A stretch of DNA of 64,000 nucleotides. Origin: Branchiostoma floridae (lineage: Eukaryota; Chordata; Leptocardii; Amphioxiformes; Branchiostomatidae). The notes under the pieces are model-generated. The model was not told the origin of the DNA. It saw only the letters and a program-made list of their open reading frames with translations, and did no database searches. Shown one piece after another: positions 23,966 through 52,124 of the stretch. Each line of letters begins with the position of its first letter. Within the stretch, counting starts at the first letter, position 1. The position numbers and the translations under genes are program-made. The stretch covers positions 23,867,429 through 23,931,428 of the forward strand of contig NC_049988.1 in assembly GCF_000003815.2 (NCBI RefSeq). The letters are read 5' to 3'.

Positions 23966-24442
23966 GCTGTGTTCCAGTAGAAGGCGGAGACCCTCAGGGG
24001 CAGTTAATGCGGGACCTGGTTGTTTGTTTATTTAGATGTTTACCAATTTGTTTGTGTTCCAGGCTGTGTTCCGTTAGGAGGAGGAGACTTTGAGGTACAA
24101 TTGATGCGGGGCCTGTTTGTTTGTTTGTTTACCTGTTTGTTTGAGTTCCAGTAGAATTTGGAGACTTTGATCTGAGGTACAGTCAATGCGGGACCCGTTT
24201 ATATGTTTGTTTGTTTACCTGTTTGTTTGTGTTCCAGACTGCGTTCCAGTAGAAGGAGGCGACCCCGAGGTGCAGCTAATGCGGGACCTGTTTGTTTGTT
24301 TGTTTGTTTATTTATTTACCTGTACGTTTGTTTGTGTTCCAGGCTGTGTTCCAGTAGAAGGAGGAGATCCTGAGGTGCAGTTAGTGCGGGACCTGTTTGT
24401 TTGTTTGTTTGTTTGTTTACATGATGTTTGTTTGTGTTCCAG
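23966..24442 (+). repeat. Exon-fragment array 1 of nAChR gene A (acceptor plus start of exon 2)
   Basis: Five partial copies start at 23966, 24063, 24152, 24238 and 24343, before the full exon at 24443. Each has a GTTCCAG-type 3' splice site and about 55 nt of the exon (encoding [17 protein letters not shown]). Each then breaks at the GACCTGTT of the exon into (TTTG)n. The copy at 24152 lacks the first bases. Most copies stay in the exon's reading frame, and the TTTG linkers read as LFVC-type residues without stops. Confidence 0.9.
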
Positions 24443-27400
24443 GCTGTGTTCAAGTACAAGGAGGCGACCCCGAGGTGCAGCTAATGCGGGACCTGTTCGC
24501 GGACTACAGTTCCTTCCCCCGGCCCGTGTCCAACACCACCCACATCGTCTCTGTCAAGTTCGGGCTATCACTCTCACAGATCGTCGGGCTGGTCAGGAGA
24601 AATTTGTTTCGTTACTTGTTATGTTAAAGAGAGAGCGGAAGATAGATGGATAAAAGAATATTTAGATAGAGAGAGAGAGAGATTGGAGCAGAGATTGCAA
24701 TCTGGCAAAATCGATTATTCTAACGGTACTGTAGGGATAGCGATCAATCGAAGTTCACATCGAGATCTCTACTGGAAAAATCGTCGACTGTACCGGCGAT
24801 TCTGTTCCCAATGTGTACCGGGAGAATCCGCCATTCTGCGACACCACAATCTCTACCCTAATATGTAAGCACTTAAAAGTTGGATATGGTCAGTCAATCG
24901 GACGAAAATCTCTCTGGGTGAAAATGATGCTTTCTTTGACTGTTGAATTGTTAACATGATCTTCTGAAAACTATATTGACTTGCATCTTATGGTTTCTTG
25001 TGTCTTATAGAACATGAAGGACCAGGTGATGACGACAAGTGTGTGGCTCAAGCAGGTGAGAGTCTTCATTGCATTGTAAAAAAAGGTTTTAAAATGCCGA
25101 GATCGAACTCACGACCTGCTGAACGCCAGGCAAATATTTCACCTACTTGGCAGCGTAGTTTAGGTTAGTACGTGCAAATGCTGTCATAGTGCCCACCTTT
25201 ATGGTGCCCACAGACCTGGACGGATTATAATTCAAGGTGGAATCCTGCCAAGTAAGGCAACATGAGGCGTATAATCAGTTACGAGACAAGTAGGGTAGTA
25301 TAAAACATGTATCGTTACATAGTATGGTCTTCATATGACTTTGCTGTGCCCGCAGATCTGGGAGGATTACAAGCTGACGTGGGATCCTGCCGAGTATGAC
25401 GGGATCACCCGGATCAAGGTTCCCGTGGACATGATCTGGATCCCGGATGTTCTGCTCTACAACAAGTAAGTAAATCGTCTTAGGCTAACCTCACATTCCG
25501 AACCAGGCTGGCCTGTTTGTGGAAACGAAGAATAGAAATATACTTAAAATTACTCGTGGAGTATTCGTAAAAATATTCACAAATAATGACCATGATTATC
25601 CTCTTTACGTCTTTGTGTGCTTTGGTGTCTTTTATATCATACTTGTTGTTCTTGGTCGGTGGTCTGGACGCCAGGGGGCATCTAGAGTTCCTGTTTATCC
25701 TTTTAGTGACACTCTCTTTCCTTCACTCTCTTTAACCTTTTGTTCTACAGCGCTGACGGAAAGTTTGAGGTCTCTTCCTTCACCAAGGCGACCCTGTTCT
25801 ATAACGGCACGGTGGTCTGGACGCCGGCGGGGATCTACAGTTCCAACTTATTCTTTTGTGACTCTCTCATTCAATCATTATCTGTTCTACAGCGCTGACG
25901 GCAAGTTTGAGGTCTCGTCCTTCACCAAGACGACCCTGTTTTATATCGACACGGTAGTTTAGACGACGGCTCCTACTTATCCTTTTGTAATTCTTTCATT
26001 CATTTATTCATCGACTCTCTTTACCCAGCGCTGACGGAAAGTTTGAGGTGTCCTCCTTCACCAAGGCGACCCTGTTCTTTAACGGCATGGTTGTCTGGAC
26101 GCCGGCGGGGATCTACAAGTCGTACTTATCCTTTTGTGACTCTATCATTCATCCATTCTCTCTTAAACTTTCTGTTCTACAGCGCTGACGGAAAGTTTGA
26201 GGTCTCTTCCTTCACCAAGGTGACCCTGTTCTATAACGGCACGGTGGTCTGGACACCAGGAGGGATCTACAGTTCCTACTCATCCTTAGGTGACTCTCTT
26301 ATTCATTCATTCCTCCACTCTCCCTTCTACAGTGCTGACGGCAAGTTTGGGATATCCTCCTTCACCAAGTGACTCTCTCATTCATTCATTCCACAACACT
26401 CTCTGTCTTTTTTACAGCGCTGAAGGCAAGTTTGGGTGTCCTCCTTCACAAAGACAACGTTGTTCCATAACGGCATGATACAGAATCTCTAGCAACTCTC
26501 TCTCTCTCTCTTTCTCTTTGTTCTACAGTGCCGATGGCAAGTTTGAGGTCTCGTCCTTCACCAAGGCGACCCTGTTCTATAACGGCACGGTGGTCTGGAC
26601 TCCAGCGGGGATTTACAAGTCTTACTGCTACATCGACGTAACGTTTTTCCCGTTCGACCGTCAGAACTGCTCCATGAAGTTCGGCACGTGGACGTACGAC
26701 GCCACAGTGGTGGACATGGTGCCGATAGAGCCTGTGGTGTGTATGATGGATAGATATCTGTTTGTTTGTTTGTTTGTTTGTTTGTTTGTTTGTTTGTTCG
26801 GCACATGGACGTACGACGCCACAGTGGTGGACATGGTGCCGATAGAGCCTGTGGTGTGTATGATGGATAGATATCTGTTTGTTTGTTTGTTTGTTTGTTT
26901 GTTTGTTTGTTCGGCACATGGACGTACGACGCTACAGTGGTGGACATGGTGCCGATAGAGCCTGTGGTGCGTATTATGGAGAGTTTTTGAATAAATATCT
27001 GTTTGTTTGTTTGTTCGGCACGTGGACGTATGACGCTACAGTGGTGGACATGGTGCCGATAGAGCCAGTGGTGTGTATGATATAATACTGTGGAGAGTTT
27101 TGAATAGTTGTTTGTTTGTTTGTTCGGCACGTGGACGTATGACGCCACAGTGGTGGACATGGTACCAATAGAGCCCGTGGTGCGTGTGGCATATTTACTG
27201 TGGAGTGTTTTGAGTACATATCTGTTTGTTTGTTTGTTTGTTTGTTCGGCACGTGGAAGTACGACGCCACTGTGGTGGACATGGTACCGATAGAGCCCGT
27301 GGTGCGTGTGGCATATTTACTGTGGAGTGTTTTAAACAGATATCTGTTTGTTTGTTTGTTTGTTTGTCTGTTTGTTCGGCACGTGGACGTATGACGCCAC

Positions 27401-30400
27401 AGTGGTGGACATGGTGCCGATAGAGCCAGTGGTGTGTATGATATAATACTGTGGAGAGTTTTGAATACATATCTGTTTGTTTGTTTGTTTGTTTGTTTGT
27501 TTGTTTGCTTCGTTTGCATACCAGGGGGTAAACCACCTCAACAGCAGTAACATACCACGTTTGTACTGTGAACAGTACAAGTTGCATATCTAGGTTTAGG
27601 GCATGGTGATGTCTTCGACAGAAAATGCCGATGCAAACCTGAGGCTAGAAATTTGAACTATAGATATCGTTCCTATCCATTTTTTTTCTTTTCCTGGCGA
27701 TTAAAAAATACTTATGGGTTGGTACTTGTGCAGGCTCATTTATCATTTCTCACATTACTTATCGTAAGTATTTATATCACTTATCAGATTTATCACATTC
27801 TTAGCCTGGCAATTTCATTCTTTATCACAGGTAGACATTTATCATTTATTTATCTATTTATCATAGCCATTTCCTTCTTCCTCACAGGTGGACCTGTCCA
27901 ATTTCCTGGCGAACGGAGAGTTTGTGATCATGAGCGCTCCTCTGTACAGACACGTCCTGTCGTACGAGTGCTGCCCGCCGTATGTGGACATCACCGCCTA
28001 CATCGTACTGGAGCGACTCCCGCTGTACTTCACCGTGAACCTGCTCATCCCGTGTCTCCTCTTCACCTTCTTGTCTCTTCTGGTATTCTACCTGCCGTCT
28101 AAAGCTTGTGAGAAGATCACGCTGTGTATCTCCATCCTGCTGTCGTTAGCTGTGTTCCTATTGGTTGTGGTGAAGATCATCCCGTCCACGTCATTGGCTG
28201 TGCCGTTGCTAGGGAAGTACCTGCTCCTGACGACGGTGTGCGTCATCCTGTCCGTGGTGGTGACGACTGTCGTGCTGCACCTGAGCGACAGGACGGACCC
28301 CATGCCGGGGTGGGCCAGGAAGGTCAGTATTTTTTTTTCTTCATTTTTTTGCTTATCCAGAAAATGTATTTCATCTGATGGCGCTTTTAAAAGATTTCTG
28401 GAGGGGAGGGAGGTGCACAAAATAACATTATGATATCAGAAAAAAAAACATAGCTTCTTATCTTTCTGCTAATAGTTTTTGCTGATCATAATGAAAACTT
28501 TTAGGGCTGCTGCAGCCTGGAGTCATGATTTTTCTTTGCCCTAGCTGTTGTCTGTATCTAGATCTTTATAGATCTAGTTCTGGTTTCTTGTAGAATTTTA
28601 GTGTGACCAACTAAACCAAACCCTTTAGAGCATTTTAAATGCCAAATGCAATTGACGATGATGTGAGCGTAGCTATAGAGCATTGAGCGACAGGACGGAC
28701 CCCATGCCGGGGTGGGCCAGGAAGGTCAGTAACAATTCCTTCTAACACAAACGAATGTTTAAGCAGACTTTCCGAACTACGGAAAGAAAACTTTACGGTG
28801 TCGTCAAGGCCATTGAAACTATGGTGTGACCTTCCCGCAACGTTCCTGCATTCGTTAAGGTGGCCAAAATACATGCTGTATCTTTACTTAACCATTGAAT
28901 ATCCTTAGATGAAACCCCTTATCATTGATGTATATAGAATATGTACAGCCTACAGGCTTTGACACGCCTACGACTATACGTTCCACGTATTGTATAACCT
29001 ATAGGTTCTATTACAAGTCCTGTCGCAGCTGCTGTGCAGGACGAGACCCAGAGGTAGCAAGGTTACCACCAGACTGCTTGTTTATATGTTTGTTTGTTTG
29101 TTCCCGTAGATGTTGTTACAAGTGCTGCCGCGGCTCCTCTGCATGACCAGACCCGGCAGTAACAAGGTTGCCGAGATGCTCCTGAACAGTCAGGCGGACG
29201 TGCTGGACGATCTGCCCGAGGGCGAGACGGTGTACGCCAGCATCAGGCCGAGGGGCAGCCCGAGGTTCGCTTTAGTCTGTTAAATACGCACAATTTTAGT
29301 GAACATGTTGGACTTAATAATGCACATCAAGGTTGTACATTGAGAAAAAAGCCCTTCCAAGTTCCAGCACAGACGCAACAAACACCCGATTCCCATTCCC
29401 GATTTCCCAGGTAACTAGCCCAATTGATCTACGAGGTGGGTCAAACTCAAAGGTGATCGAAAGTTTGTAACGCCCCCCGTCTGATGAGTCTGATATGTGA
29501 AAATTTTTCTGAGGATATTCTTAGTAAGTGACTAAACAGGTGTGCGACGTGTTCGTTGCTCAATCAATGTATTTAGAATCCATTACAAATCCAACAAAAG
29601 TCTAGAATTACCAGATCTGCAGAGTAAAACTCGTTATCAAACTCGTTAAGATATCTTTCAAAAAAAAGTTTATTTGCAAGTTCATACTCGGAGGCTAATT
29701 GCAAGTACATGGTGGAAACATAGCAGGCATAGCAGTGACAATGAGCTGTAATAAACATTGCTGTAAGTTATCCTAGTGATAACTATTTCCAAACGGGTTG
29801 GGTTTGACTTCTAAATGGTTTGGAGTCATAGACGTGAGAGTTTATTGTGGTGTAATCAGGACTCTCCCCCGTGTGTCCAGGTTAACGAGGAACCTGCAGC
29901 TGCACAGAGAGGAGCACCCCATCTCTCCCGAGCTGCGCGCTACCGTGAAGAACATCAACGCTATCGCCAAGAGCCTCCGGGGAGACATGCTCAACTCGTC
30001 GGTACGTACTTCCTGTTTCATTAGACGGACGAAGGCAATGTAGCACTGTCCTCAAGTTAGTACCTTAGCAGTGCCACATACAAAGAAGTCACCTAGTATC
30101 TCGTGTTTTAATGATGTTTATGTGACAGTTTTACTCATATGATATTATTTCTTTTATATACGTTTTGATTTTTATAAGCTTTCTATGTACTGGCAGCGAT
30201 TATAAGAGATACGCAATTCAGCCTCTGGCTGCAAGGTATTTTCTGAATACAGTTTCAAAGCTTTTTTCTATCTTCTTTTTACAGTTGTCTGACGATTGGC
30301 AGTACGCCGGCCTGGTGCTGGACAGGTTCTTCATGTGGGTCTTCTTCCTCATCTCTCTGATTGGCTCCCTCGTCATCTTCCTGCCGCCATTCGTCTTCGA

Positions 30401-30425
30401 CAGGTCTGTCGTGATATCCTACTGA
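24443..30425 (+). CDS. Nicotinic acetylcholine receptor alpha-type subunit, gene A (5' exon not found)
   Basis: Exons 24443-24591, 25011-25055, 25356-25465, 26529-26736, 27888-28322, 29110-29264, 29881-30001 and 30285-30425 join in frame to 454 residues plus stop, needing one base from an unseen phase-1 signal-peptide exon. It is a pentameric ligand-gated cation channel subunit of the Cys-loop family. Visible: loop A ([10 protein letters not shown]); the Cys-loop (two cysteines with 13 residues between, in exon 26529); loop B FGTWTYD; adjacent cysteines in YECCPPY, the mark of alpha subunits; M1; M2 with EKIT at its inner end and K at position 20'; M3; a cytosolic loop; M4 in the last exon ([17 protein letters not shown]). 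All splice sites are GT-AG; the donors after 24591 (GTCAGG) and 29264 (GTTCGC) are weak. Array copies surround several exons. Confidence 0.9.
25090..25146 (-). mobile_element. tRNA-like SINE fragment
   Basis: The minus strand reads GTCGTGAGTTCGATCTCGGC, a B-box-like end, preceded by GCCAAGTAGGTGAAATAT. It lies in an intron of gene A. Confidence 0.45.
25480..25653. mobile_element. MITE truncated by exon array
   Basis: It starts TAGGCTAACCTCACATTCCG, then TGTTTGTGGAAACGAA, and later TTTGGTGTCTTTTATATCAT, matching the reverse complement of the element at 11466-11666. The second inverted end is missing: at about 25654 it abuts an exon fragment (GGTGGTCTGGACGCCAGGGG). Confidence 0.65.
25654..26528 (+). 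repeat. Exon-fragment array 2 of nAChR gene A (acceptor plus start of Cys-loop exon)
   Basis: Partial copies start at 25751, 25893, 26029, 26183, 26333 and 26418. A headless piece lies at 25654, and the intact exon starts at 26529. Copies begin right after a pyrimidine tract and CAG/TAG-type acceptor with CGCTGACGG, encode [19 protein letters not shown] and extend to about GIYKSY, then pass into ACTTATCCTTTTGTGACTC and a TCATTCATT-rich linker. Period is 85-154 bp. The copies at 26333 and 26418 are shortened, and the one at 25893 has in-frame damage (GTAGTTTAG). Confidence 0.92.
26737..27510 (+). repeat. Exon-fragment array 3 of nAChR gene A (exon 3' end plus donor, TTTG linkers)
   Basis: Six copies of the last ~57 nt of the exon, each with its 5' splice site, start at 26797, 26910, 27014, 27123, 27245 and 27375. 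They encode [19 protein letters not shown] and are followed by GTGTGTATGAT or GTGCGTGTGGC. Each copy is joined by ATATCTG-(TTTG)n, with a period of 104-130 bp. The open frames on both strands (FVCLFVC one way, NKQTNKQ the other) are by-products of the TTTG runs. Confidence 0.92.
28683..28730 (+). pseudogene. Duplicate of the 3' end of nAChR gene A exon 27888-28322
   Basis: GAGCGACAGGACGGACCCCA and the following 24 bases, including the GGAAGGTCAGTA donor, repeat 28285-28328 without change. The sequences on either side differ. Confidence 0.85.
29003..29063 (+). pseudogene. Diverged duplicate of the 5' part of nAChR gene A exon 29110-29264
   Basis: TTCTATTACAAGTCCTGTCG and later ACGAGACCCAGAGGTAGCAA align with the start of the intact exon (TGTTGTTACAAGTGCTGCCG, TGACCAGACCCGGCAGTAAC). 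A TTTG run and the real acceptor (TTCCCGTAG) lie between the two. Confidence 0.7.
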
Positions 30426-31499: not shown

Positions 31500-31505
31500 A
31501 ATAAA
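31500..31505 (+). terminator. Candidate polyadenylation signal, nAChR gene A
   Basis: Canonical AATAAA on the coding strand, 1.07 kb after the stop codon of gene A. It is assigned by position only. Confidence 0.35.
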
Positions 31506-31751
31506 TTAGCATTATTGGTTAGTTGTGATTTCTATGCGTGACTTGTAACATACGGGAGCAGCTGGTTATAGATCGGTAGGGCCTACAGTAGGGGTTACAT
31601 TGGGCCGTACATTAAACACACTTGAGCCTTGCTATGCATCAAATCAATGGAGCGTGTCTTGCGATGAGGTGACTTAGGATTCTGAACAAATACGGATTAA
31701 ATGTTAGGAAATCGCCCTACTAAACTCAGTATTGGGACGGACCTGGGGGGT

Positions 31752-32640: not shown

Positions 32641-34161
32641 CTATAGATGCTGTACATGGTTACAACTCGACCTTGGATGCCGCACGTCAGTCCGTTCCTT
32701 TGGTCATGACATGAGAGAGAAGTCAGCCGCGACATTGCCTCTTACTTATACGGCATCAATCACTGACCCACCATACATGTAAACAAGAGAAACAATGTGT
32801 TACATTCAATAATAAAATTAGTGTCCATAACTCAAGTTCACAAATGTCAAAGGTCAAAACCCCAAAATTCAAAAATAAGGTTTGCAGGTCAGAGGTCACG
32901 ATGTTACATGAGACGTGTGATTTAAGGCAGAGTAAACTGCCGTAGAATTGATACATGCCTAACTTCAGCGGGGAGTGTTCTGTAGTAATTTATGCCTTTT
33001 GAACGCGACTGTGCTGTACATGGATATAGAACTCGACCTTGTATATCAGTCCGTTCTTTTGGTAATGACGTGAGAGAGAAGTCAGCTGCGACATTGCTTC
33101 TTACTTAAATACGGACGGCCGGAACTGCACTGGCTCAACTTGTCGGGCATCGGGCATCGTGTCTGACCTCTGGGGTAACCTTGGCTGTCAAATATGAAGA
33201 GTCAAGGTCACGTATGCATCACTGTCAAGGTCAGAAGGGAAGGAGAGGGGCTTAAATTTCACGCCCTTTTTTACTAGACGGCGATGGTGCTGCGCTCTCA
33301 CTGAGAACTAGAGGATGTGTATAACCTACAATTAAATACTGAATATACAGCGCAAAATATAAAAAGTCTGACTGAAAAGACAACAAGAGAGAGTGCCGTC
33401 CTAGAGGAAAGGTGATATTACAGACAACTAAGATCAGCCAAAAAATTTCATTAAGTACTAATTTTACTTACATTTTGCTGTGTTTGTTGTCATTATATGT
33501 CGATGCAGAACCCAGTGACTGATGATGATGATGATTGTGAATTCTATTGAAATTATAAAATCAAGGATCATACAAATCAAGCTTCGGTTGCTCAGCGAAA
33601 GGAAGGTGGTCTTTATGACGTATCTTCATCCACTAAGTGTCTTTGACTTACAACACAAAACATCGCGATTATCGACGTTTTCACGTACTTAAGTACAGGG
33701 ACTACGATTAAACCCTATTCATAATGTCAGAAATTTAAGTCGACCAAACTTATAGTGCTGGTCGTCTCTTTGACATTCTAAACGTGACATTACAATTATC
33801 GACAGTTTTTTTTCATGCTCGTATTAATGGTATCAGCACAAGGAACGCACTTGAACCTGACTCGGGATGTCAAAACTAAAGAGCAAAAGCAAACTCTGTA
33901 ATCGCTCATTGAAGGCAAATGGAGTGCGGAGCGCTCTGCTGTCCCGTACAAACATCGATAGTACAGGGACTACGCATTCACACTATTTGTAATGGAACAA
34001 ATGAAAAGCCGAGCAAATCTAGTCATCTTTGACATTTGCAACATTACAATGACAATGACAATGACAATTATCGACAGTTTTCATGCTCCTAGTAATAATA
34101 TCAGCACAAGGAACGAACTTGAACCCTGACTTGGAATGTCAACACTAGAGAGCAAAAGCAA
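32641..34161. other. Intergenic region with two tandem duplications
   Basis: A ~110-bp segment at 32645-32755 is repeated at 33005-33117 (GAGAGAGAAGTCAGC and the GACATTGC that follows). A second unit at about 33785-33970 recurs at about 34035-34370 (ATTATCGACAGTTTT, TATCAGCACAAGGAACG, AATCGCTCATTGAA). No gene is seen. Confidence 0.6.
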
Positions 34162-34275
34162 TATCCTGGTATCCAGCCGAATTATAGCTATCGAGTCTCT
34201 TCTGTTCTCTATTTGCAGAGAGGACAGAAAAGGCTCTGCAGATCTGGAGCTATAACACTGCTGGATACCAGGCTA
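34162..34275. mobile_element. 114-bp palindromic foldback element with target-site duplication
   Basis: Ends TATCCTGGTATCCAGCC and GGATACCAGGCTA; same family as 2765-2886. It sits in one copy of a tandem duplication. The other copy, near 33885, reads GAGCAAAAGCAAACTCTG without it. The flanks are CAAAAGCAA (34153-34161) and CAAAATCAA (34276-34284), a 9-bp duplication with one mismatch. Confidence 0.85.
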
Positions 34276-34289
34276 CAAAATCAAACTCT

Positions 34290-35003
34290 ATAATCGCTCA
34301 TTGAAAACAAACGGAGTGCAGAGCGCTCTGCTCTCCTGTCCAAACATCGATAGCGGAGGAGCTCCGGTCACAGCGAGAGAAATTGAGCCTTCGGGACCGC
34401 CATTTATACCCCCAGTCTGGCGACCCGGGCGTGCACGCGAGACCGGACTGTCATCATACCACGGAATCTGGTTCAGACCGTCCCAGCGCGCAGCACAGCT
34501 ATGTCCGACATCTCCCAGCTGTAGGAGCTGTAGTAACCACATCATCGGGAGCTCGTCGCTATCTCTACGGAGCTAGAAGTGTGGGGTGCCCGCACAGTTC
34601 ATTAGCTCACGCCGGGGAATTTTATTACAGGGTTGGGTTTGGTGTAGAACTCTCACCGGGTGCCGAAGACTACACCGTCGGCAGGGAGCGTCATCTGCCC
34701 CGAAGAGGACCTTGCCAAGCCACGGTAGACTGGCTACCGGGTTATGAGCTGGAGGAGCGGGATGCCGGGACTCTCCTGAGGAGATCTGCAGATTGTACAG
34801 GAAGGCAGTAGAGAACACGGATGTACGTGATACGTCACGCCTGGCGGGAACTGAGGCGGTCTGTTTGGCAGGCCTGCAGACGACACCAGGCATGATGATA
34901 TCTGAGGCACTCCCGCCATTCAGCTGAGGGGACTGCGTGTTTGTCTTGTAGAGGCTGTTCAACTTGCTGTTTACGCGCTATGTTGGTGTGGTGGGGGTCC
35001 AAC
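34290..35003 (+). promoter_or_regulatory. Probable promoter and 5' UTR region of nAChR gene B
   Basis: This is more GC-rich than the flanking DNA, with several CpGs, and lies directly before the signal-peptide exon. No TATA box or start site can be fixed by eye. The open frames here (for example 34383-34811) show no conserved domain. Confidence 0.35.
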
Positions 35004-38000: not shown

Positions 38001-41000
38001 GCCAGCCTTGTCTAATCACCAGGGTTCTGTTGTAAAGTTGATTTGATTTGAAAATGGCGAATGCAAATGTCGATTAATGGCGCAAGAGGGACAAGGAGGT
38101 AATAATCATCGAACTGTGTCTTTCGTTTCAATAAGGAAATTGTCATTGGTATGTTTGCTATTTGATTACCCATGCCATTGCTTTTTATATAGAGATTAAT
38201 TCATATTTTTTTGTTTTCATTTATACATGAGAAGCTCAAATCGGCCAGCTTTTCATTAAGGTCATGACGAAGGTAAGGGTCAGATAAAATATACCAGAGA
38301 TACAGATTACACCGAGTCCTAAAAATCTATCAACACATATCATTTCATATACATAGTACAAAAGGATATAGTATAGCGGAAGCTACTGTTTCATTTTTAT
38401 ACAAAAAATACATAGAAAATTGACAGATTTAAGCATTTTAAGCAAATTTAAGCAAATTGACAAATGTAAGCATTTTCTTAAAGATCTATATCTCTGAACC
38501 GTCTGATGGTTAAATAAAGTTAACCGAAGTGACTGAAGTGTCACTGGAATTATCTGTATGTCGGATACCTCCTCCAGGCAGTATAATAAGAAAGAGATCA
38601 GAATGTCTTGAATGTCTTGCGCCTTAAGATAAGTAAGAAGACATCCGCGAGATGCCGTGATCTTTTCCGACGCCTTTAATGTAAGAGGGGTCCCCTGTTA
38701 TACGAGTAGTTATCACCGGTTCATTTTCATACAAAAGAACATAGAAATTTGACAGAACAAAAATGTAGGCATTTTCTTAAAGATGCATATCGATCTTCTG
38801 CAGGTTTGAACAATTATGATGGTAAAGACACAACTGCTAGAAGTCTAAATAAAGTTAACCGAAGTGAATTCGGAACATATCTATAAGTTGGATGCCTCGT
38901 TCGGGCAGTATAATAAGAAAGAGATCAGAATGTCTTGAATGTCCTGCGTCTTAAGATAAGTAATAAGACATCCGTGAGATGCCGTGATCTTTTCCGACGC
39001 CTTTAATGTAACAGCGGTCCCCTGTTATACGAGTAGTTATGAAAATGTAGGCATTTTCTTACAGATGCATATCGATCTTCGGCAGGTTTGAACAGTTATG
39101 ATGGTAAAGAAGTAACTGTTAGAAGTCTAAATAAAGTTAACAGAAGTGAATACTGAACATATCTATAAGTTGGAAGCCTCGTTCGGGCAGTATAATAAGA
39201 AAGAGATCAGAATGTCTTGAATGTCTTGCGCCTGAAGATAAGTAATAAGACATCTGTGAGATGCCGTGATCTTTTCCGACGTCTTAAATCTAACCCTGCG
39301 GTTCCCTGTCATCATAGTTATCACCGGAATAGCGGACTGATTAAGGTTGTGTTATTATCCGTCATCTGTGGGACGGCCAGACGGGTCCATCTGCTCTTAT
39401 TTACACTAGATAACTTGGTTAATGAGGGTCTTACATGATAACCATATAGGTTAATAAGCATGGATTATGAGACATCAAAGAGATTGGCATTGGATTGTGG
39501 CGCGGCACGACATTGGACGGCAATGGATGGTGCAGCCCAACCCTCCTCTTCTACTACACTTACCCCCCCCCCCCCATCCATGCACATTTGGAGTTTTATT
39601 CTGTGTAGTACTTACAAGAACACATCTAAATCTTCATATACAGTCTCCCCGATGGACGGTTTTGAGTTGTAGGCTGTGTAGTTGCTAGTGAGTAAACTTT
39701 TTTCCAAGACAACACTTATAATGACTTTAAACGATGTAAATTGTATTTCTGTTATATACTTTGTCTGACCCTTGCCTCTTCCCTCATGACTTCAATGAAA
39801 AGCGGCTTGCGGGCCGATTTGAGCAGTCATGAATAAACAAAGATTCAAACAAAACAGAAACACAAACAAGAACACGACGTCTAGCCTGGAATGTCAAGAA
39901 TCAAACTCGCGACCCCTCGATATCTCGCGTCATCAAACCTAAGCACTCAACCATCCGACGCCACTTATCTGTACTAGATAAGATATCGATGATTAATGAG
40001 CATGCAGCATGTCTCATCGTCCAAATGGACTCATCATCCTGGACCGGTATCTGATACTGATGATGACATTTGATTCACATATGGTTGCCTCTATGTGCAA
40101 AATTCGTCATCATTAATTTCAGGTGACTGAAATAAAATTTACTCATTAGGGACAGATGATGTATAAATGTGGAAATTCTCATCCTCTTTTTAACAAGAAA
40201 GCCCAGTCCCCTCACCCTTTACAACAGCGTGTAACATATGGTTGAGTGACATCATTAAAATGGGCTCATAAGAGTGACTTAATATCTCAAAATAATGAAA
40301 TTGTTTAGGTATGGCAACCGTAATTTGAAATATCACCCCGATGTATGTCCGAGATAACTGAAATTTATTGATGATTACAAATATTACAAATAGTATATAA
40401 ACTTGGAAGACAAAGTCCATTCCTCCCCATCCACTGCCTGCTGCCCCTACCAAGGTACCAGGTACCAATATGCACAACTATATATATAGAGAGGGGGGTG
40501 AGAGAGACAGAGGGACACAAAGACAGAGAGACAGACATAGAGAGAGAAAGAGAGAGAGAGAGAGGGGGAGAGAGAGACAGAGAGACAGGCAGAGAGAGGG
40601 AGAGAGAGAGAGGGAGGGAGAGAGGGGAGAGAGGAAGAGAGGGAGAGAGACATAGAGACAAGCAGAGAGAGGGAGGGAGAGAGGGAAAGAGGGAGAGAGG
40701 GAGAGAGGGAGAGAGGGAGAGAGGGAGAGAGGGAGAGAGGGAGAGAGGGAGAGAGGGAGAGAGGGAGAGAGGGAGAGAGGGAGAGAGGGAGAGGGAGAGA
40801 GATTTCAAATACATCGTGTCCACAAGCAACATGGCCTTGACTTTCCTACCGCGAGAATTTCAACCCTCTGCATATATTTAGCTGAGCGCCATCAGGCCAA
40901 CGGGTCGGGACTCGAACTCGCGACCTCCAGGTTAGGTTAAACAGGACTGTAAACCACCACAACAAGCGCGTTGCCGAACACATGTAGTGATATAGACCTC

Positions 41001-44000: not shown

Positions 44001-47000
44001 GAAAACCATTCTCTTGAAGATGTTGCCTTTCTAGTTATAATGTCTACGTGGCAACGAAAAGTGAGGATTGAACCACGTTTCAGCCGAAATGCCATGATCA
44101 TGAAAACAACACAAACCGTTAATAATGTACAATGAAAGATGATATTGTCTGTACCACTTGACGCTATGTTCATAACCCAGTCTGGCTTAGTTAAGCCCAG
44201 TCTGAACCACTACTACTTCCTATTGGCTGCTGGAGAAATAGAAGAAATTGGCCAAATAGACAGAATGGTACTAGTATGGCGGACGAGTTAGCCGACCATA
44301 TGGGGTACATTCTGTTACTCAGGGACTCTGTGTATTTATGTCATACCTGTGACGCGAAAACGTGAGGATTTAATGCACGTTTTGGTCGATGAGCCATAAA
44401 AGCAATACAAACCGTTAACATTAATGCTGGACAATGACATGTGATATTGTCTGGACCATCTTGCCTCTATGTTTATAACCCAGTCTGGCTTAGTTAAGCC
44501 TGGTCTGAGCCGCTACCAGACCCTATTGGTTGCTGTGAAATAGAAGAAATTGGCCAAATAGACAGAATGGTACTAGTATGCCATACAAAATTAGACGGCC
44601 ATATGGGGTACATTTTGTTACTCAGGGAGTCTGTATTTATTTATTCATCTCAAAACGGGTGGGTGGCCCCTAGAACTTTTGAATTTTCCAAGGGTGCCCA
44701 CCATACATGTAAAACAAACTATTCACCTAGAGTTAAGACACCAGTGGACAACATACAATACATCACATAAAAACTGAAGCGTCATAAACAAAATCAGTGC
44801 CCATTTCACCAAGGAGACCAGATAAAACCTCCTCCTTGATTTCACAGTCGCAAACGTTCGAAGGTCAAACTCAAAACGTCAAAGATGGAGATTTTATGTC
44901 ATAGGTCAAGGTGCTACATATGTCACGTGGCAGCTTTAAACTGTGGAAGGTAACCTACGGAGTTAGGTAGAGACTGATGAAAGCTAACCTATTGGACTTA
45001 TGTCAAAACAGTGTTTTTATATTGTATACTATTTAAAATCTCTTTATAAGCCGCTCTATTACACATAAATAGTGAAACGTGAAGGACGGTTCCTGACAGA
45101 CACGTAAACATGACAGAACACACCGTACATAGGAAGGACGCTACTCTGGTGAACCCAGTCGAGAATTACTTATGAAAACATAGGAACCTTTATAATGAAT
45201 AAATAGACAAGGTTTTGCGTGTTTTATATAATTTTATCGGTGATTTGAAACACCATTTTGTTTTGTCACTTTTGAAACACTATTCAGTTTAAAGTAGAGA
45301 TAGCAAGAGGACCAGTAAACATATAAGAAACCCTAGTCCGGATGACCCCCATGTTTCACCCTTCCTACCGCTGGCCCACAGTAATGTCAGGAATGGGAAC
45401 CATGGCGGTGGTGTCTGCTGTGGGTAGTCTCTACCGGGCTCTACAGGGCGGGCGGAAATAGTAGAAATTGCCAAATAGACCAACTTGTATTTATACGGTT
45501 GCAATAGTGCAATGGCCGAGTGGGTTGAGTGTTCGCCTTCCATTAAATGTTGTACTATATAAGGAGGGTTTAACAACCTTCTAAGTCTTAGAATAATCCT
45601 CCAGTAAGGTGTGTGTACGTCTGTGAATACCATGATAATTCAGACTTTGTTGTTTCAAGTCTGCGAAGTGGTATACTGAATAAAGATTTCAAAGATTTCC
45701 ATTCGGTAGGTCTTGAGTTCGATCCCCGACCGACAAGAGACTTTAAACACACATCAATACCAATGGACTAGCTAGCCCCCTGTTGTAGTGGCTTGCACAA
45801 TTGTTTGGAGCAAGGGCTAAAGAAATGGATATGGGCACCACCCCTTAGCATTTGTTACAGGTGTATGGGCAACTTTAACTTTTTAACGTAACTTGTATAC
45901 CAGAGGAGTTAGAGGGTCTAAGTTACCGTATATTGTCCAGTCTATTGGCTCAATATGTTCTATATCCAGTGATCTATGGATTCTTTATTTAGGCTCCGCT
46001 GTTCTCAGTACGGACAACACAGGCTTGTTTCATGTTCGTCCATACTGCTACAATTGTTTATGTAGTCACGGCTGACCTACTATTAAACCTGTAACCAAAC
46101 CAGTGGTTCATTCTTAGAACAGTTGGCCTTTTGGCCTACGAAACCAATACACAATACAAAGCGTTGAGTGCGTTGTCAGGCACCTAAATATGACTGTTCA
46201 CGTATCTTTTCCTAGGTCTGGAATCCAGTCATTGTCTTCAAATCATTTAAGATATTAATTCGTATAGAACCTGCTCTCCGAAAGATTACTTCAGTCTCAC
46301 TGATGAAAGATAACGGATGTTGTCTGATACGTCTGACTGTTTCCAAAACCATGTACAAATGCTTGAGTAATTGCTATTTGTTGTATCTTACTCCCTGGAT
46401 ATCTAATCTTCACTCACACTCACTCAGTCCCACAGCTGGTAGCCGTAGGGGCATTGAGTCTGTCCACAAAATGAAGGTTTTCCACTTCTGACGGTCGTCA
46501 GCCAATCTGGTCAGCCAATCTGGGCCGTCGTCCTTCCTGACGACTCCTTGACGTCGCTGATCCATGTTCCTTAAATCTGCTTTTTCTTGTAGGAATGCGT
46601 GTGCCAAAGTTCCTTTCCATCTAGTCTAGCATTCATCAAAATATAATTGTAAAACATTCTCTCTCTCTCGCTACAGGACTATCGCAAACGGGGGCAAGTG
46701 AGCGGCTCATGTCCGACCTTTTTGACGTTTATCACAAGTTTCCCCGGCCCGTGAAGAACATTACGGACAAAGTCACCGTCAACTTTGGAATTTCTTTATC
46801 TCAACTTATTGATATGGTAAGTGTTGCATAGGAAAGACTATCTTCACCATGTATTCCGTCTGCCTACTTGTTGTTTCAAGTACGCACGTACAATACAGTA
46901 GAAGCCAGTTAATTGCACAACGGTTAATCGCACACTTCTGTTAGTAGCATGGAATCCTCAAAGCCCATGGTGGTGCGGTGTAGTTGGATAACTTCGCTTT

Positions 47001-50000
47001 GTTGCACCACCCGGATAATTGCACGAAATGTGCTGGCAAATGAGGTGTGCAATTAAACGGCTTCTACTTCTACCGCTAACGTCACATTTCCAAAAAATGG
47101 TCCGTCCGGGTAGTTTTTGGGGGACAAAAAGTACAATTTAAAAGACAACAAAAACACAAAACGGACCCAAAAAATTATTCAACGTCATTGCTTTTGTATA
47201 TTGGCAAAAAACTGTCATTTTTCGTTTCCACAAACAGCCCATTTGGACCCGGAAAGGAATTGTGACGTAGGCCTTCAACACCTTTCGTAAAAAAATGTTT
47301 GCTAACACGCTTGCTGCTAGTACTGACACATTGATGTCTATCAGCAATTTACTCATGATCTACACTTATGCACTGTCTACTATCCTACTGCCTTCTATGG
47401 TATGTTAAACACACATTCCTTTATCAAATGCATTCAAATACATTACTTCGTATATCCGGACAGATGTATCACTCCTTACAGCGCCCCCTACCGTTCCTCT
47501 CGTTCACCGCAGCTTTATGGGCAAGGACAGCAAAGTGTGTACCATACAGAGTAGCGGTACACGAAGACTTCACTTTGCCCTCGTAAAGGGCATGAATTAC
47601 AGCTACAGTTATCGATATAACTTTCCTGTCGCTTCAGGACGAGAAGAACCAGGTTCTGACGACCAGCGTCTGGCTGAAACAGCGGTGGGACGACTACAAG
47701 CTTACATCCCTAAATACCTTGTTTTTAAACGAATATAGGTTACCCCATGGATAAAGGTGAACTAGCGTTGAATTTCCTGCCGCTTTAGGACGAGAAGAAC
47801 CAGGTTCTGACGGCCAGCGTGTGGCTGAAGCAGCGGTGGAAATTGGATGGTACCCAAACTAATCCTAAACGCTCAGGACAGCAATTTGTGTACCAATGAA
47901 GTAGCGGTACAAGAAGGTTTGACCATGCCCACCCAAATGACAATAGGGTATAAATTGCATCTAAAGTTATCAATTTCAATTTTCTGATTCAGGACGAAAA
48001 GAACCAGGTTCTGACGACCAGCGTGTGGCTGAAGCAGCGGTGGGACGACTACAAGCTGACGTGGAACCCTGACGAGTACGACGGCGTCAAGTACCTCAAG
48101 GTCCCGTCGGACATGATCTGGGTTCCCGATGTGCTCCTGTACAACAAGTGAGTGGGTAAATTCTTTTGGGCTAGCCAAAACATGTCCTATACGCCCTATG
48201 TGTTCCTATGCAACAACAGAAACAACGTTGATCCACTTGCAGGGGCACGTGTCCAACGAAGTCAATAATTAATCCATTGATAAAAAAAAAACAATGCAAA
48301 TTTTGTGACGATGTTCAATACATTGCTCATCTGTTCAATACATTGCTCATCTGTTTGTTTGTCTATGTTTTTATCCATATGTTTGTTTGTTTGTTTATTT
48401 TCCCAGCGCTGACGGCCGGTTCGACGTGTCGTCCTATACCTGGGCGAAAGTTTTCTTTGTCTATGTGTTTGTTTGTATGTTTGTTTATTTGTTTGTTTAT
48501 TTGTTTATTTCCCAGCGCTGACGGCCGGTTCGACGTTTCGTTCTACACCTGGGCGAAAGTTGTCTTTGTCTATGTGTTTGTTTATTTGTTTGTTTATTTG
48601 TTTGTTTATGTGTTTATTTCCCCAGCGCTGACGGCCGGTTCAACGTTTCGTTCTATATCTGGGCGAATGTTTTCTTTGTCTACGTGTTTGTTTGTTTATT
48701 TGTTTGTTTATTTATTTCCCAGCGCTGACGGCCGGTTCGACGTTTCATCCTACGCCTGGGCGAAAGTTTTCTTTGTCTCTGTGTTTGTTTATTTATTTGT
48801 TTATTTCCCCAGTGCTGACGGCCAGTTCGACGTGTCACCTGGGCGAATGCTGTCTTTGTCTATGTGTATGTTTATTTGTATGTTTATTTGTTTATTTCCC
48901 CAGCGCTGACGGCCGGTTCGACGTGTCGTCCTTCACCTGGGCGAAAATTTTCTTTGTCTATGTGTCTGTTTATATGTTTGTTTGTTTGTTTTTTTCCCCA
49001 GCGCTGACGGCCGCTTCGACGTGTCTTCCTATACATGGGCGAAAGTTTTCTTTAACGGAACGGTGGAGTGGATTCCCGCCGGCATCTACAAGTCCTACTG
49101 CTACATCGACGTCACAAACTTCCCGTTCGACAGGCAGACCTGCAAAATGAAGTTCGGCACCTGGACGTACGACTTCACCCTGATCGACATGAAACCGCTG
49201 GACGAACAGATCGACTTGTCGAACTTCAGGGAAAGCGGAGAGTTTACCGTTGTGGACACGCCGCTTGTGAGGAGCGTGGTGGAGTACGCGTGCTGTCCTC
49301 CGTACGTGGACATCACGGCGTACATCGTCATAGACAGGCTGCCACTCTTCTTCACCGTGAACTTGGTGATTCCGTGTTTGATTTTCACGTTTTTAGCCAT
49401 CCTGGTGTTTTATTTACCGGTGGATGCCGGGGAGAAGGTGGGCCTGGCCATCACGATTCTGCTGTCTCTGTCTGTGTTCCTCCTGGTGATCTTCACTATT
49501 ATCCCCGCCACATCGTTCGCGATCCCGCTACTGGCCAAGTACCTGCTGTTCACTAACGTAGTGTGTACTATATCCGTCATCATCACCTGCGTGGTGCTAC
49601 ACCTGCATCATCGCACGGACGAGATGCCCAGGTGAGTTTGTTTGTTTGCCTATCCTTAAAATGATTTAGACCCCAGAAGAACTGATGGATATTCTCCTGT
49701 CTTTTTAACTGCAGCTGCGTTTTGTAAGATTGCCCATCAAATCCAAAGGTTACTCATGCAACTGAATGAGTCTTGCAATGTTTTTTTGTAATCCGTTTTG
49801 TACTGACCATTTACAAAGGTATCCAGTTGTTTAAGTAACGTTTTGCAGTGGGCATCTCATTACGGATTATATTTGTTCATTTGCAGATGCTTCGTACGAA
49901 TAAAAGTATGATTAAAGCTTTTCTTGGGGAACATTGAAGCGGATGTTAGCCATTTAATCAAATCAACATGGATTTACATACTGTAGTAACCAGGATGTCT

Positions 50001-52124
50001 AATCTTCATCATCACTCCCGTAAATACTCTACCGCACCTCTCAGGTGGGGCAAACGGGTGTTCCTGCACATCCTGCCGAAACTGCTGCGGATGGGCCGCC
50101 CGGACGACGGCGAGGCGGACTCGGTGCGGGACGACGACGTGCGCGGCTCGGACCTGGGCGGGGGGAACATGCTACGGTCCCGCCACAGGAGGGAGCGGGG
50201 CGGCGTGCCTGACAGCCTCATGGCCGAACTGGACCCGGCTGTCAAAGGGGTGGAATATATAGCCGAGCACGTCAAGGGCGAGATAGAGGGTGGACAGGTA
50301 AGGACATTGAATTGACTTACTTGACTTATGTCGGGTGCCACTTTTCCCTGCCACCCGAACCACTGTGGCAGCCCAGAAGTCCCTGTCCAGCATGGTGAGT
50401 TATAACTACATGTACATTGAGATCACTTTCTTTTCCTTTTGTTTTGTCCCCAGGTTGCGGATGACCAAAGTAGTCCGCCAGGGTTGTAGACTGCATCATC
50501 ATATACCTGTTCATCATATTTTTCGGCATTTATGCATTAATTTTGGAGTCTCCAGAGAATGTCGACCATAAGATTATAAGTAACCATGGTCTTACGCCAC
50601 ACACGAAGTCTTTTCCTTTCCCTCTTGTTTCCCTGTGTGTCCCTAGGTTGCGGATGACTGGACGTATGCTGTGATGGTTGTAGACTGCATCAACATGTAT
50701 CTGTTTATCATCTGCCTATAGCCCTTCACGCATTAGTTTTGGAGTTTCATCAACAAGATTAAATCACTATGGTCTTACGTCACACACGATGTCTTTACCT
50801 AACTCTATTGCATCCATGTGTGTCAGCAGGTGGCCGAAGACTGTGGCCACGGCGATGCGATGGTTGTGAACTACATCAGAATACCATTTTTTTGCCTTTA
50901 CGCATCAGTTTTGGAGTCTCCAGAGGATGTCCTCCATAACATTAAATTACGGTGGTCTTACGTCACACACGACGTCTTTTTCTTACCCTGTTGCTTACCT
51001 GTTGCTTACCTGTTGTCCTCCAGGTTGCGGATGACTGGAAATACGCCGCCATGGTTGTGGACCGCATCAGCATGTGACTGTTAATCATCTTTTTCCTTTG
51101 CCTTTACGAATCAGTTTTTCAGTTTCATCCATAATATTAAGTCACTATGGTCTTACGCCACCCACGACGTCCTTTCCTAACCCTATTGCATCCATGTGTG
51201 TCCCCAGGTGGCAGATGACTGGACGTACGCCGCCATGGTTGTGGACCGCATCAGGATACCATTTTTGTGACTTTACGCATCAGTTTTGGAGTCACCAGGG
51301 GATGTCATCCATACGATCAAGTCACTGTGGTCTTGCGCCATGCACACGTGGCGTCTTTTCCTTACCCTGTTGCTTACCTGTTGCTTACCTGTTGCTTACC
51401 TGTTGCTTACCTGTTGTCCTCCAGGTTGCGGATGACTGGAAGTACGCGGCCATGGTTGTGGACCGCATCATCATGTGCCTGTTAATAATCTTTTCCCTTT
51501 GCCTTTAGGCATTAGTTTTGGAGTCTCCAGAGGATGTCCATATGATTAAGTCTTTCAGAGGATGACATCTATGAGATAGGGTCTTACGCCACTGACGACG
51601 TCTTTCCCTGTGTCTCTCCAGGTTGCGGATGACTGGAAGTCCGCCGGCATGATTCAATACCACATCAGGATACCATTATTTGGAGAATGTCATCCATGAG
51701 ATTAAGTCACTATGGTCTTACGCCATGCACACGTGGCGTCTTTTCCTTACCCTGTTGCTTACCTGTTGATTAACTGTTGTCCCCAGGTTGCGGATGACTG
51801 GAAATATGCCGCCATGGTTGTGGACCGCATCAGCATGTACATGTTCACATCTTCTTTTTTGCCTTTACGCATTAGTTTTGGAGTCTCCAGAGGATGTCAT
51901 CCATATGATTAAGTCTTACGCCACTCACGACGTCTTTCCCTGTGTCTGTCCAGGTGGCAGATGACTGGAAGTACGCCGCCATGGTTGTGGACCGCATCAG
52001 CATGTACATGTTCATCATTCTTTGCGGCATCGGCGTGTTGGCGACCTTCCTCCCGCCCTTCGTGTATGGGCCGCCCGAGCCGGAGATCCCGCCATCTCAG
52101 GTTGGAGGACCACCAACAGCGTAA
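35004..52124 (+). CDS. Nicotinic acetylcholine receptor alpha-type subunit, gene B, complete
   Basis: Exons 35004-35052, 46677-46816, 47993-48147, 49002-49631, 50045-50297 and 51954-52124 join in frame to 465 residues plus stop, all GT-AG. Exon 1 encodes a short hydrophobic signal peptide ([16 protein letters not shown]) and ends in phase 1 at GTGAGT; an in-frame ATG at 34980 is an alternative start. Then come the ligand-binding domain with [10 protein letters not shown] (loop A), the Cys-loop at residues 148-162, FGTWTYD (loop B) and the alpha-defining pair in YACCPPY (about 212-213). M1, M2 (GEK at the inner end, T at 20'), M3, a charged cytosolic loop and M4 ([19 protein letters not shown]) follow. 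Gene A has extra introns at WLKQ/IWED and EPV/VDLS that gene B lacks. Expected at the plasma membrane as part of a pentameric acetylcholine-gated cation channel. Confidence 0.93.
36236..36296. repeat. GATAT microsatellite
   Basis: Imperfect repeats of ATGATATGAT and ATGATACGAT in the first intron of gene B. Confidence 0.8.
36697..36901. mobile_element. MITE of the CTCCAAGCAGA family
   Basis: The left end TCTCCAAGCAGATGTTGTAC and right end CCTAACTCTGCTTGGAGAGT are inverted. The sub-terminal TTTTTTAGTCGTTTTATC pairs with AAAAACGACTAATAAACG. It is more diverged than the copy at 37736-37956, and no clear target duplication is seen. Confidence 0.7.
37736..37956. mobile_element. MITE of the CTCCAAGCAGA family, best-preserved copy
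   Basis: TACTCTCCAAGCAGAGTTTA then GGCTCCGGC at the left, GCCGGAGCCTAACCTCTGCT then TGGAGAGTA at the right, with long complementary arms (TTTATCGGGCTTTCTATTTT against AAAATAGAAAGCCCGATAAA). GGTACCAA occurs just before the left end and one base after the right end, so an 8-bp target duplication is plausible, as in hAT-type elements. Confidence 0.8.
38460..39320. repeat. Three-unit tandem repeat in nAChR gene B intron 1
   Basis: The units share TAGGCATTTTCTTAAAGATG, AATAAAGTTAACCGAAGTGA, CAGTATAATAAGAAAGAGAT, TCAGAATGTCTTGAATGTC and GAGATGCCGTGATCTTTTCC in order, near 38460-38720, 38760-39040 and 39041-39320. The first unit is the most diverged. Non-coding. Confidence 0.85.
39893..39965 (-). 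mobile_element. tRNA-like SINE fragment
   Basis: The minus strand reads GTGGCGTCGGATGGTTGAGT (A-box-like) and ends GGGGTCGCGAGTTTGATTCT (B-box-like). Confidence 0.5.
40487..40802. repeat. GA / GGGAGA microsatellite
   Basis: Purine-only tract of about 315 nt, ending in a regular (GAGAGGGA)n array. The Arg/Glu-rich and Ser/Leu-rich open frames across it are artefacts. Confidence 0.95.
40895..40985 (-). mobile_element. tRNA-like SINE fragment
   Basis: The minus strand has CGCGCTTGTTGTGGTGGTTT, then GGAGGTCGCGAGTTCGAGTC and CCGACCCGTTGGCCTGATGG. The B box GCGAGTTCGAGTCCC is clear; the A box is poor. Confidence 0.5.
41190..41690. repeat. Degenerate tandem repeat, ~2.5 units of ~210 bp
   Basis: CGAGAGAAACTGTACCCCAA, TAGTTTGTAAACAGAAACT and GTTTGCTACATGTTCTTT recur with changes near 41205, 41450 and 41625. 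The first unit is open in one frame for 74 codons, but the later units are not, so I do not call a gene. Confidence 0.65.
43329..43414. repeat. Inverted repeat, ~30-bp arms
   Basis: TGCCAAAAGCAGTTACTCAA then GCAACTAGA is complementary to TCTAGTTGCTTGAGTAACTG then CTTTTTGGCA across an 18-nt loop. Related single arms occur near 46353 and 49828, often followed by CTGGATRTCTAATCTTC, so it belongs to a dispersed family. Confidence 0.75.
43490..44645. repeat. Two sets of tandem duplications in nAChR gene B intron 1
   Basis: Set 1: about 43495-43620 and 43780-43880 share TATGTCTGCTGATGTGTTCT and GTCTGGAGCCGAACAGAG. Set 2: about 44150-44345 and 44450-44645 share ATAACCCAGTCTGGCTTAGT and AATTGGCCAAATAGACAGAA. 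A MITE at 43662-43778 splits one copy of set 1. Confidence 0.8.
43662..43778. mobile_element. 117-bp MITE inserted at TA (mariner-type)
   Basis: Ends CTGTAAATGCAGAAATGTTC and GAACTTAAGTGCATTTACAG are inverted; the centre is rich in CGCGAA and TTCGCGG. It is flanked by TA on both sides. The sister copy of the surrounding duplication, near 43511, reads GACAATATTACC without the element, giving the empty site directly. Confidence 0.9.
45501..45755 (+). mobile_element. tRNA-like SINE split by a second insertion
   Basis: The left half carries GCAATGGCCGAGTGGGTTGA (A-box-like) and the right half GGTCTTGAGTTCGATCCCCG (B box). Between them, 45545-45696 is an unrelated ~150-bp piece ending GAATAAAGATTTCAAAG. 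It is flanked by TTCCATT at 45538-45544 and 45697-45703, a 7-bp target duplication. Confidence 0.75.
46896..47071. mobile_element. MITE with CAGTAGAAGCC inverted ends
   Basis: CAGTAGAAGCCAGTTAATTG then CACAA at the left is complementary to GTGTGCAATTAAACGGCTTC then TACT at the right. Internal TTGCACCAC and GGTGGTGCGG phrases also pair. It resembles pogo/Tigger-type non-autonomous elements. It sits in intron 2 of gene B, directly against the next MITE. Confidence 0.7.
47075..47275. mobile_element. MITE, same family as 11466-11666
   Basis: CTAACGTCACATTTCC at the left pairs with GGAATTGTGACGTAGGC at the right. The sub-terminal AATGGTCCGTCCGGGT pairs with CATTTGGACCCGG. The internal ACAAAAAGTACAATTTAAAAGAC and TCCACAAACAGCCC also match the other copies. 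Confidence 0.65.
47638..47992 (+). repeat. Exon-fragment array of nAChR gene B, exon 3
   Basis: Two partial copies, starting at 47638 (about 66 nt, to GACTACAAGCTTACAT) and 47789 (about 52 nt, to CGGTGGA), precede the intact exon at 47993. Each follows a CAG or TAG acceptor. Both encode [15 protein letters not shown]. The preceding intron pieces (CGGTACACGAAG, CGGTACAAGAAGG) are also related, so the duplicated unit included intron and exon start. Confidence 0.88.
48407..49001 (+). repeat. Exon-fragment array of nAChR gene B, exon 4 start
   Basis: Six partial copies start at 48407, 48516, 48626, 48723, 48813 and 48904; the intact exon starts at 49002. Each has a (TTTG/TTTA)n-CCCAG acceptor, then 52-61 nt encoding [17 protein letters not shown]. 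Five break at TTTCTTT and the shortened 48813 copy at CTGTCTTT, all into GTCTATGTG-(TTTG)n. Period is 90-110 bp. The shared break point shows the array grew by repeating a finished unit. Confidence 0.93.
49632..50044 (+). other. Intron 4 of nAChR gene B with dispersed-repeat arms
   Basis: GTGAGT to CTCAG borders. CAGTTGTTTAAGTAACG (near 49821) and CCAGGATGTCTAATCTTCAT (near 49990) belong to the family of the inverted repeat at 43329-43414. No extra exon is seen. Confidence 0.6.
50316..50396 (+). repeat. Dispersed repeat shared with 57777-57862
   Basis: CTTGACTTATGTCGGGTGCC, CCTGCCACCCGAAC and CAGCCCAGAAG-type phrases recur in the same order at 57777-57862 behind zinc-finger gene C. Confidence 0.7.
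50454..51953 (+). repeat. Exon-fragment array of nAChR gene B, last exon (M4)
   Basis: Eight partial copies start at 50454, 50647, 50830, 51024, 51208, 51425, 51622 and 51787; the intact last exon starts at 51954. Each has a CAG or TAG acceptor then about 55-75 nt of GTTGCGGATGACTGG-type sequence encoding [19 protein letters not shown]. Each then runs into a shared linker (TTTACGCATYAGTTTTGGAG, CCAGAGGATGTCATCC, TCTTACGCCAC). Period is 165-217 bp. No copy has a full M4 in frame. GTTGCTTACCT is itself repeated in two linkers. Confidence 0.93.

Follow-up and report, generated by a model that had tools for sequence, protein, structure and literature searches.

Two nAChR subunit genes and a K2P-type potassium channel gene of Branchiostoma floridae carry partial copies of their own exons, 38 in total at 11 exon ends (31 acceptor-side and 7 donor-side, a remnant at 25657-25684 excluded). 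Very probably these are amphioxus mirage minisatellites, i.e., short tandem duplications across splice sites that are tolerated and require no function. The pattern is not new in kind: the arrays are new members of the "mirages", here in nAChR and K2P genes, and the additions are their density, the repeated ends of some of the same exons in gene models of other species, the weakness of most partner splice sites and the mostly synonymous variation among the copies of one exon. The window, meaning the whole stretch of DNA analysed, is C10:23867429-23931428, the last 64 kb of a contig that ends at 23,931,428. The genes concerned were modelled as follows (positions are those of the window).

nAChR subunit gene A, plus strand, starting at modelled exon 2: exons 2-9 at 24443-24591, 25011-25055, 25356-25465, 26529-26736, 27888-28322, 29110-29264, 29881-30001 and 30285-30425 (splice sites, open frame, Pfam, PDB relatives).
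nAChR subunit gene B, plus strand: modelled exons at 46677-46816, 47993-48147, 49002-49631, 50045-50297 and 51954-52124 (Pfam).
K2P-type potassium channel gene, minus strand: four modelled exons at 21889-21211, 20427-20261, 19683-19474 and 18941-18663 (Pfam Ion_trans_2 in two stretches).

The exon ends of gene A were set from splice sites and the open frame and adjusted by reading phase. Both receptor genes contain the ligand-binding (Neur_chan_LBD) and membrane (Neur_chan_memb) domains in Pfam, and among PDB entries gene A matches nAChR alpha-4 best, in agreement with the identity proposed in a preliminary description of this DNA. The window also holds another Ion_trans_2 ion-channel coding stretch on the minus strand (11814-12404), for which the uniform pipeline described below detected no local copies, and two C2H2 zinc-finger coding stretches (56299-57291 and 61733-62833), whose 84/168-base tandem repeats are ordinary zinc-finger repeats. 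Further local repeats lie beyond the modelled genes at 38511-39327, 44055-44640, 33692-34353 and 1335-2493.

Copies were detected by direct reading, by local BLASTN of each modelled exon against its surroundings, and by alignment. The inventory is given below.

23966..24442, plus strand: 5 acceptor-side copies of exon 24443-24591; exon part approximately 53-55 nt, unit approximately 97-105 nt, intronic part rich in (TGTT)n.
25214..25258, plus strand: 1 diverged acceptor-side copy of exon 25356-25465; 74% in BLASTN with E 0.007, or E 1.8e-6 with flank; also by alignment.
25657..26528, plus strand: 6 acceptor-side copies of exon 26529-26736, at 25751, 25893, 26029, 26183, 26333 and 26418; exon part at most 98 nt (BLASTN and alignment).
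25657-25684, plus strand: remnant of the same acceptor-side array (BLASTN).
26796..27516, plus strand: 6 donor-side copies of exon 26529-26736, with the last 58 nt of the exon and the GT donor.
27801..27836, plus strand: 1 short acceptor-side copy of exon 27888-28322, with 6 nt of exon; 78% over 36 nt (tile scan).
28684..28731, plus strand: 1 donor-side copy of exon 27888-28322; 48 identical nt (41 exon and 7 intron), 402 bp downstream, not head-to-tail.
29004..29067, plus strand: 1 diverged acceptor-side copy of exon 29110-29264, with 79% identity across 57 nt (BLASTN and alignment).
47638..47839, plus strand: 2 acceptor-side copies of exon 47993-48147 (BLASTN and alignment).
48407..49001, plus strand: 6 acceptor-side copies of exon 49002-49631, with 52 nt of exon in a unit of approximately 100 nt.
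50454..51953, plus strand: 8 acceptor-side copies of exon 51954-52124; the seven found by BLASTN have 50-77 nt of exon, and the eighth (50831) comes from alignment.
19912-19854, minus strand: 1 acceptor-side copy of K2P exon 3, 59 nt at 90%, making this the third gene with the pattern.

Most of the BLASTN rows are highly significant (E at most 1e-4 in 35 of 37, with a best value of 5.7e-33); the two weaker values are 8e-4, for the third and degenerate copy of exon 24443, and 0.007, for the copy before 25356. The arrays and copy counts of the preliminary description (5; 6 before and 6 after; 1; 1; 2; 6; 8) were all recovered by direct reading, BLASTN and alignment, and its claim that most exons are affected holds for 8 of the 13 modelled nAChR exons. 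The copies before 25356 and 27888, the remnant at 25657-25684 and the copy of K2P exon 3 extend that list. Tandem copies lie head-to-tail and adjoin the intact exon, with the exception of the copy at 28684, which is separated from it by unlike DNA. Here 28282-28329 and 28684-28731 form an exact direct repeat of 48 bp around 354 bp of unlike DNA that is T-rich at its start. The pair has the look of an insertion flanked by a long duplication, or of a templated copy, more than of a tandem duplication.

A uniform pipeline was applied to 18 exons, namely 17 of the three genes and one further channel exon, and found copies for nine of them. It returned 36 matches including the remnant, while three of the 38 copies fell below its threshold. 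The matches hold the 5' exon end only (27), the 3' end only (7) or neither end (2), and none holds both. In 34 of the 36 the unit spans the exon/intron boundary, the other two being the remnant at 25657 and the diverged copy at 29004. Alternatively spliced duplicated exons, which comprise a full exon with both splice sites, were considered as an identity for the copies and rejected, as both ends were present in 0/36 matches.

Whether exon ends are favoured as sites of duplication was addressed from several sides. Random placement of units on these exons gives 7.9 one-ended units out of ten, with P = 0.053 for all ten (unit lengths were approximate and entered by hand); since random placement yields mostly one-ended units, targeting of exon ends is not required. 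In a rotation test, splice sites fell within locally duplicated DNA in 7 of 30 cases against a chance mean of 10.3, a weak test because arrays were counted as intron. A tile scan of the three genes revealed no purely intronic long-unit duplication except a low-complexity stretch, and plain geometry does not explain this absence. Among 20 control loci (chaperonin and kinesin), two of 11 long-period arrays touch a known exon match and nine lie more than 200 bp away. The rotation test speaks against splice-site targeting and the tile scan of the three genes points the other way; both results are kept. The bias towards acceptor ends (9/11) reaches only P = 0.052. Four founding joints were displayed, two with microhomology of 1 and 3 bp, one with no overlap and one unscored; the null mean of microhomology is 0.68, and 3 or more is reached with P = 0.05. 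Seeding by short tandem duplication is weakly supported.

The retention of splice sites claimed in the preliminary description is seen throughout. An AG lies within 0-1 base of the set exon start in 31/31 acceptor-side copies, one of them after that start was shifted; the count comprises 29 of the 30 scored copies, the thirtieth (24139), in which the AG at 24150-24151 was found by reading, and the K2P copy. The GT is kept in 7/7 donor-side copies, with a score close to that of the real donor. The matrices behind the splice-site scores were consensus values. By these scores, 21/30 acceptor-side copies are no worse than the weakest real acceptor. Before the next acceptor, only 3/30 of them have a downstream GT that scores as high as the 25th percentile of real donors or higher, and 13/30 have one that equals or exceeds the weakest real donor, itself poor. 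No upstream acceptor in the real range was found for the six donor-side copies of exon 26529, whereas for the single donor-side copy at 28725 there is a good one, 364 nt upstream. Retention of one splice site, mostly without a good partner, would explain the silence of the copies by exon definition, and the copies are probably unspliced, judging from these site scores. Under exon definition a lone site without a partner is disregarded, so that regular splicing could survive the arrays. Two mechanisms had been offered for the arrays at the outset: a supply of decoy or alternative splice sites gains little from such poor partners, and a local duplication that spares the intact exon fits better.

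The preliminary description regarded repeated expansion of exon ends as unfamiliar, yet it is already known from amphioxus as mirages (PMC3087553, PMC3902484). According to PMC3087553, tandem repeats across exon-intron boundaries occur in globin genes, Adh3 (Canestro et al. 2002, as cited there) and other amphioxus genes, and were given the name "mirages". Haplotypes of the globin gene BflGb6 had 6 and 3 units, globin RT-PCR and Adh3 data were reported as suggesting normal splicing, and one globin mirage was apparently aberrantly assembled in the draft genome (PMC3087553). PMC3902484 describes imperfect tandem repeats of 60 and 108 bp at the splice sites of exons 3 and 4 of B. floridae PGBD5, whose copy number varies by assembly version and whose splicing the authors infer to be undisturbed; troponin C is cited there for the same kind of repeats. 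The arrays described here likewise belong to a cephalochordate, Branchiostoma floridae. They resemble the mirages of Adh3 and of globins BflGb6 and BflGb9 in that boundary copies stand in tandem beside an intact exon, at 5' as well as 3' boundaries; in those genes many, though not all, units keep the AG or GT, and copy number varies between haplotypes (PMC3087553). They differ from them in extent, with 11 exon ends in three neighbouring genes and up to 8 copies, and in that gene models of other Branchiostoma species repeat fragments of some of these exons. With the PGBD5 repeats they share imperfect tandem repetition at splice sites, in a different gene (PMC3902484). A related process is intron gain by tandem genomic duplication, in which a splice-site-bearing duplication can turn exon sequence into intron (PMC3087553); in contrast, the present copies lie within existing introns, and no new intron position was noticed among them. 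In the limited range of literature covered, mirages are reported neither for nAChR nor for K2P genes, and no single array of these genes is described as common to several species.

Gene models of relatives suggest that some of the arrays extend beyond this assembly. The best 120 of 2,725 relatives of gene A were compared, of which nine are labelled Branchiostoma and two of the other 111 are nameless. Within these 120, the closest relatives are from Branchiostoma, and a repeated exon end occurs in four proteins, all of them Branchiostoma (4/9, leaving 5/9 without one), and in 0/111 others. Counting the intact exon, the protein model P0002 of B. lanceolatum has fragments of exons 26529 and 24443 three times each. 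In B. belcheri, the exon-26529 fragment occurs three times in model P0004, in which pieces of exons 29881 and 30285 (offset 22) are also present twice each, and P0005 has the exon-51954 fragment twice. P0001, a prediction (not reads) from a B. floridae x japonicum assembly, contains, again counting the intact exon, three identical fragments of exon 29110 and thus two extra ones, where the window has one diverged copy; its C-terminal TIANGGK matches another reading frame of the first modelled exon of gene B. The fragment ends (...LMRDL, ...GIY, ...FIIL) fall at or within a few residues of the ends of the window copies, although they may mark the splice point of the predictor rather than a breakpoint in the DNA; the exception is P0001, in which the unit is longer than the window's copy. 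Since P0003, a B. belcheri model of the same gene A, lacks the fragments present in P0004, the repeated fragments of P0001, P0002, P0004 and P0005 are most likely mirage copies misread as exons by the predictor. For the K2P gene, 0/15 listed relatives were flagged for an internal repeat, and the K2P copy has no counterpart there.

In the gene models, the copies of other species resemble their own exons. Two B. lanceolatum copies match the exon of that species at 15/16 and 14/16 residues, but only 7/16 residues of the floridae exon in either case. For the B. belcheri copy the figures are 23/23 with the exon of its own species and 21/23 with that of floridae, and it shares both residues that set its exon apart from floridae. 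The simplest reading of these models is that the arrays predate the species and that turnover or conversion keeps the copies like the local exon, the alternative being recurrent birth at the same place.

The most likely origin of the arrays is as follows. Tandem duplications of approximately 100-200 bp would straddle a splice site by chance, and each unit would consist of an exon end with its splice site and part of the intron. Some units would expand and contract as minisatellites by unequal exchange or slippage, with the TGTT-rich intronic parts possibly helping. Intronic copies would normally be ignored, having one site and a poor partner, and exon definition would take the intact exon, whereas events within exons or extra full exons would be purged by selection. 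As copies of other species resemble their own exon in the gene models, the arrays would be long-lasting, subject to turnover or to gene conversion by the functional exon. None of these steps would need the arrays to have a function.

The codon pattern of the copies bears on their relation to the functional exon. Differences between copy and exon amount to 136 synonymous and 98 non-synonymous ones (pN/pS 0.20) over 35 of the 38 copies, the counts being non-independent. Of the 122 distinct states in the 32 copies of six arrays, 60 are synonymous, with P from 0.002 to 0.15 depending on the mutation model, against a null model in which a constrained exon lineage is joined to free copies and which already predicts a synonymous excess. 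Changes confined to the copies number 22, 31 and 58 at codon positions 1, 2 and 3; with CpG weights raised as far as 20, no more than 40% at position 3 is accounted for, and the observed third-position skew exceeds CpG weighting. An excess over the exon-lineage model is present only at exon 26529-26736, where 22/36 distinct states of the 5' copies and 8/9 of the 3' copies are synonymous (over four mutation models, P 0.003-0.012 donor-side and 0.005-0.06 acceptor-side); the arrays of exons 24443, 49002 and 51954 exhibit none. Under most of the mutation models tried, inert copies should show less synonymous change than this, which tells against the mirage account; with six arrays tested, the excess is suggestive only. 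A function deduced from coding constraint was dismissed on two grounds, namely that the constrained exon lineage predicts part of the pattern and that only exon 26529-26736 stands out.

Two further observations concern the copies and their exons. Exonic parts are less diverged than intronic parts in four of five arrays (25 of the 31 copies of those arrays). When 24443-24460 is compared with 23966-24442, three of four copies compared encode VPVE while the window exon encodes VQVQ; VPVE is also what the exon encodes in a gene model of B. floridae x japonicum, and the copies thus agree with another allele. It is conceivable, though we consider it unlikely, that the arrays are long-lived exon satellites, kept through Branchiostoma speciation, that exchange with the functional exon and store coding alleles; in a very large population, indirect selection against copies with amino-acid changes, which can convert the exon, would then leave a coding-like constraint on sequence that is never translated.

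Elsewhere in the genome, exon-edge copies affect a few per cent of the sampled exons, and the window is unusually dense. With the same pipeline, local copies accompany 3/55 chaperonin exon matches (one at a 5' end, two at 3' ends) and 1/39 kinesin exon matches (two 5'-end copies), and all five copies are one-ended. Exon limits in both samples are those of HMM matches, not splice sites. The chaperonin sample represents 55 of 60 matches, five from three places with long open frames being left out; the kinesin sample comprises 39 of 134 matches in eight chosen genes, one of which (C2:31966000) was picked since its matches already showed repeated fragments, and without it copies accompany 0/34. 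The difference between 9/18 window exons and 3/55 chaperonin exons (Fisher P 7e-5) is descriptive, as the arrays were the reason for choosing the window and exons do not count as independent. No array was found at another locus matching an nAChR exon (L006, 3.1 kb). The preliminary description placed the pattern in two paralogous genes; both nAChR genes do carry arrays, but this frame is too narrow, as the unrelated K2P gene of the window and chaperonin and kinesin genes elsewhere carry copies too.

This density might reflect a regional mutation hot spot, since minisatellites could be abundant close to a chromosome end. The position at the end of contig C10 and the contrast in exon copies would agree with it, as would the TRF comparison, in which long-period arrays make up 5.6% of the window minus its zinc-finger genes and 2.2% of 50 other loci (including 30 kinase-search loci, mostly matches with long open frames and employed for this comparison alone). 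When the main exon-edge arrays are also removed, however, 745 bases (1.2%) of long-period arrays are left, below the 2.2% elsewhere: the window abounds in exon-edge arrays but not in minisatellites at large, which lowers the odds of a hot spot. Moreover, no TTAGGG repeat is present in the window, so the contig does not necessarily end in a telomere; array starts are confined to 16-56 kb, and the window was picked for its arrays. A hot spot is accordingly a doubtful explanation.

Two other accounts appear weaker still. Copies might be useful and be kept by selection, either because they offer decoy or alternative splice sites or because they act as mini-exons that can be included in frame. The complete retention of AG and GT and the mainly synonymous variation around exon 26529-26736 would suit this account, as would the exon-26529 fragment, which when cut at an internal AA|GT is 90 nt by hand count, a multiple of three, and the in-frame joining of fragments in the B. 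lanceolatum and B. belcheri models. The mostly poor partner sites speak against it, as do stops or frame loss in several copies, the three arrays lacking a synonymous excess over the exon-lineage model, the P0003 model and the globin and Adh3 data reported to suggest undisturbed splicing (PMC3087553); usefulness is improbable. Amphioxus is highly heterozygous, and false tandem copies could in principle arise from collapsed or stacked alleles. The apparently mis-assembled globin mirage (PMC3087553) is a precedent. Yet the units end inside exons at a repeated breakpoint and have diverged intronic parts, unlike whole-allele stacking; orthologue models from other assemblies contain fragments of some of the same exons, and mirages are reported in several amphioxus genes (PMC3087553 and PMC3902484). 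Because other Branchiostoma models repeat some of the same exon ends, mis-assembly as the whole cause is unlikely, indeed the least probable of these accounts, while exact copy numbers would still depend on the assembly.

As tolerated mirage minisatellites, the arrays extend a scattered curiosity to ion-channel genes, in which they form a dense cluster, and the control samples supply a first rough rate of exon-edge copies elsewhere in the genome. A practical hazard follows for users of public Branchiostoma gene models, some of which appear to take mirage copies as coding exons and so to present receptors with repeated pieces. The models of other species suggest that some arrays outlive species, and if exchange with the functional exon were true, these loci would constitute a natural test of how the conversion of exons by broken copies is policed.
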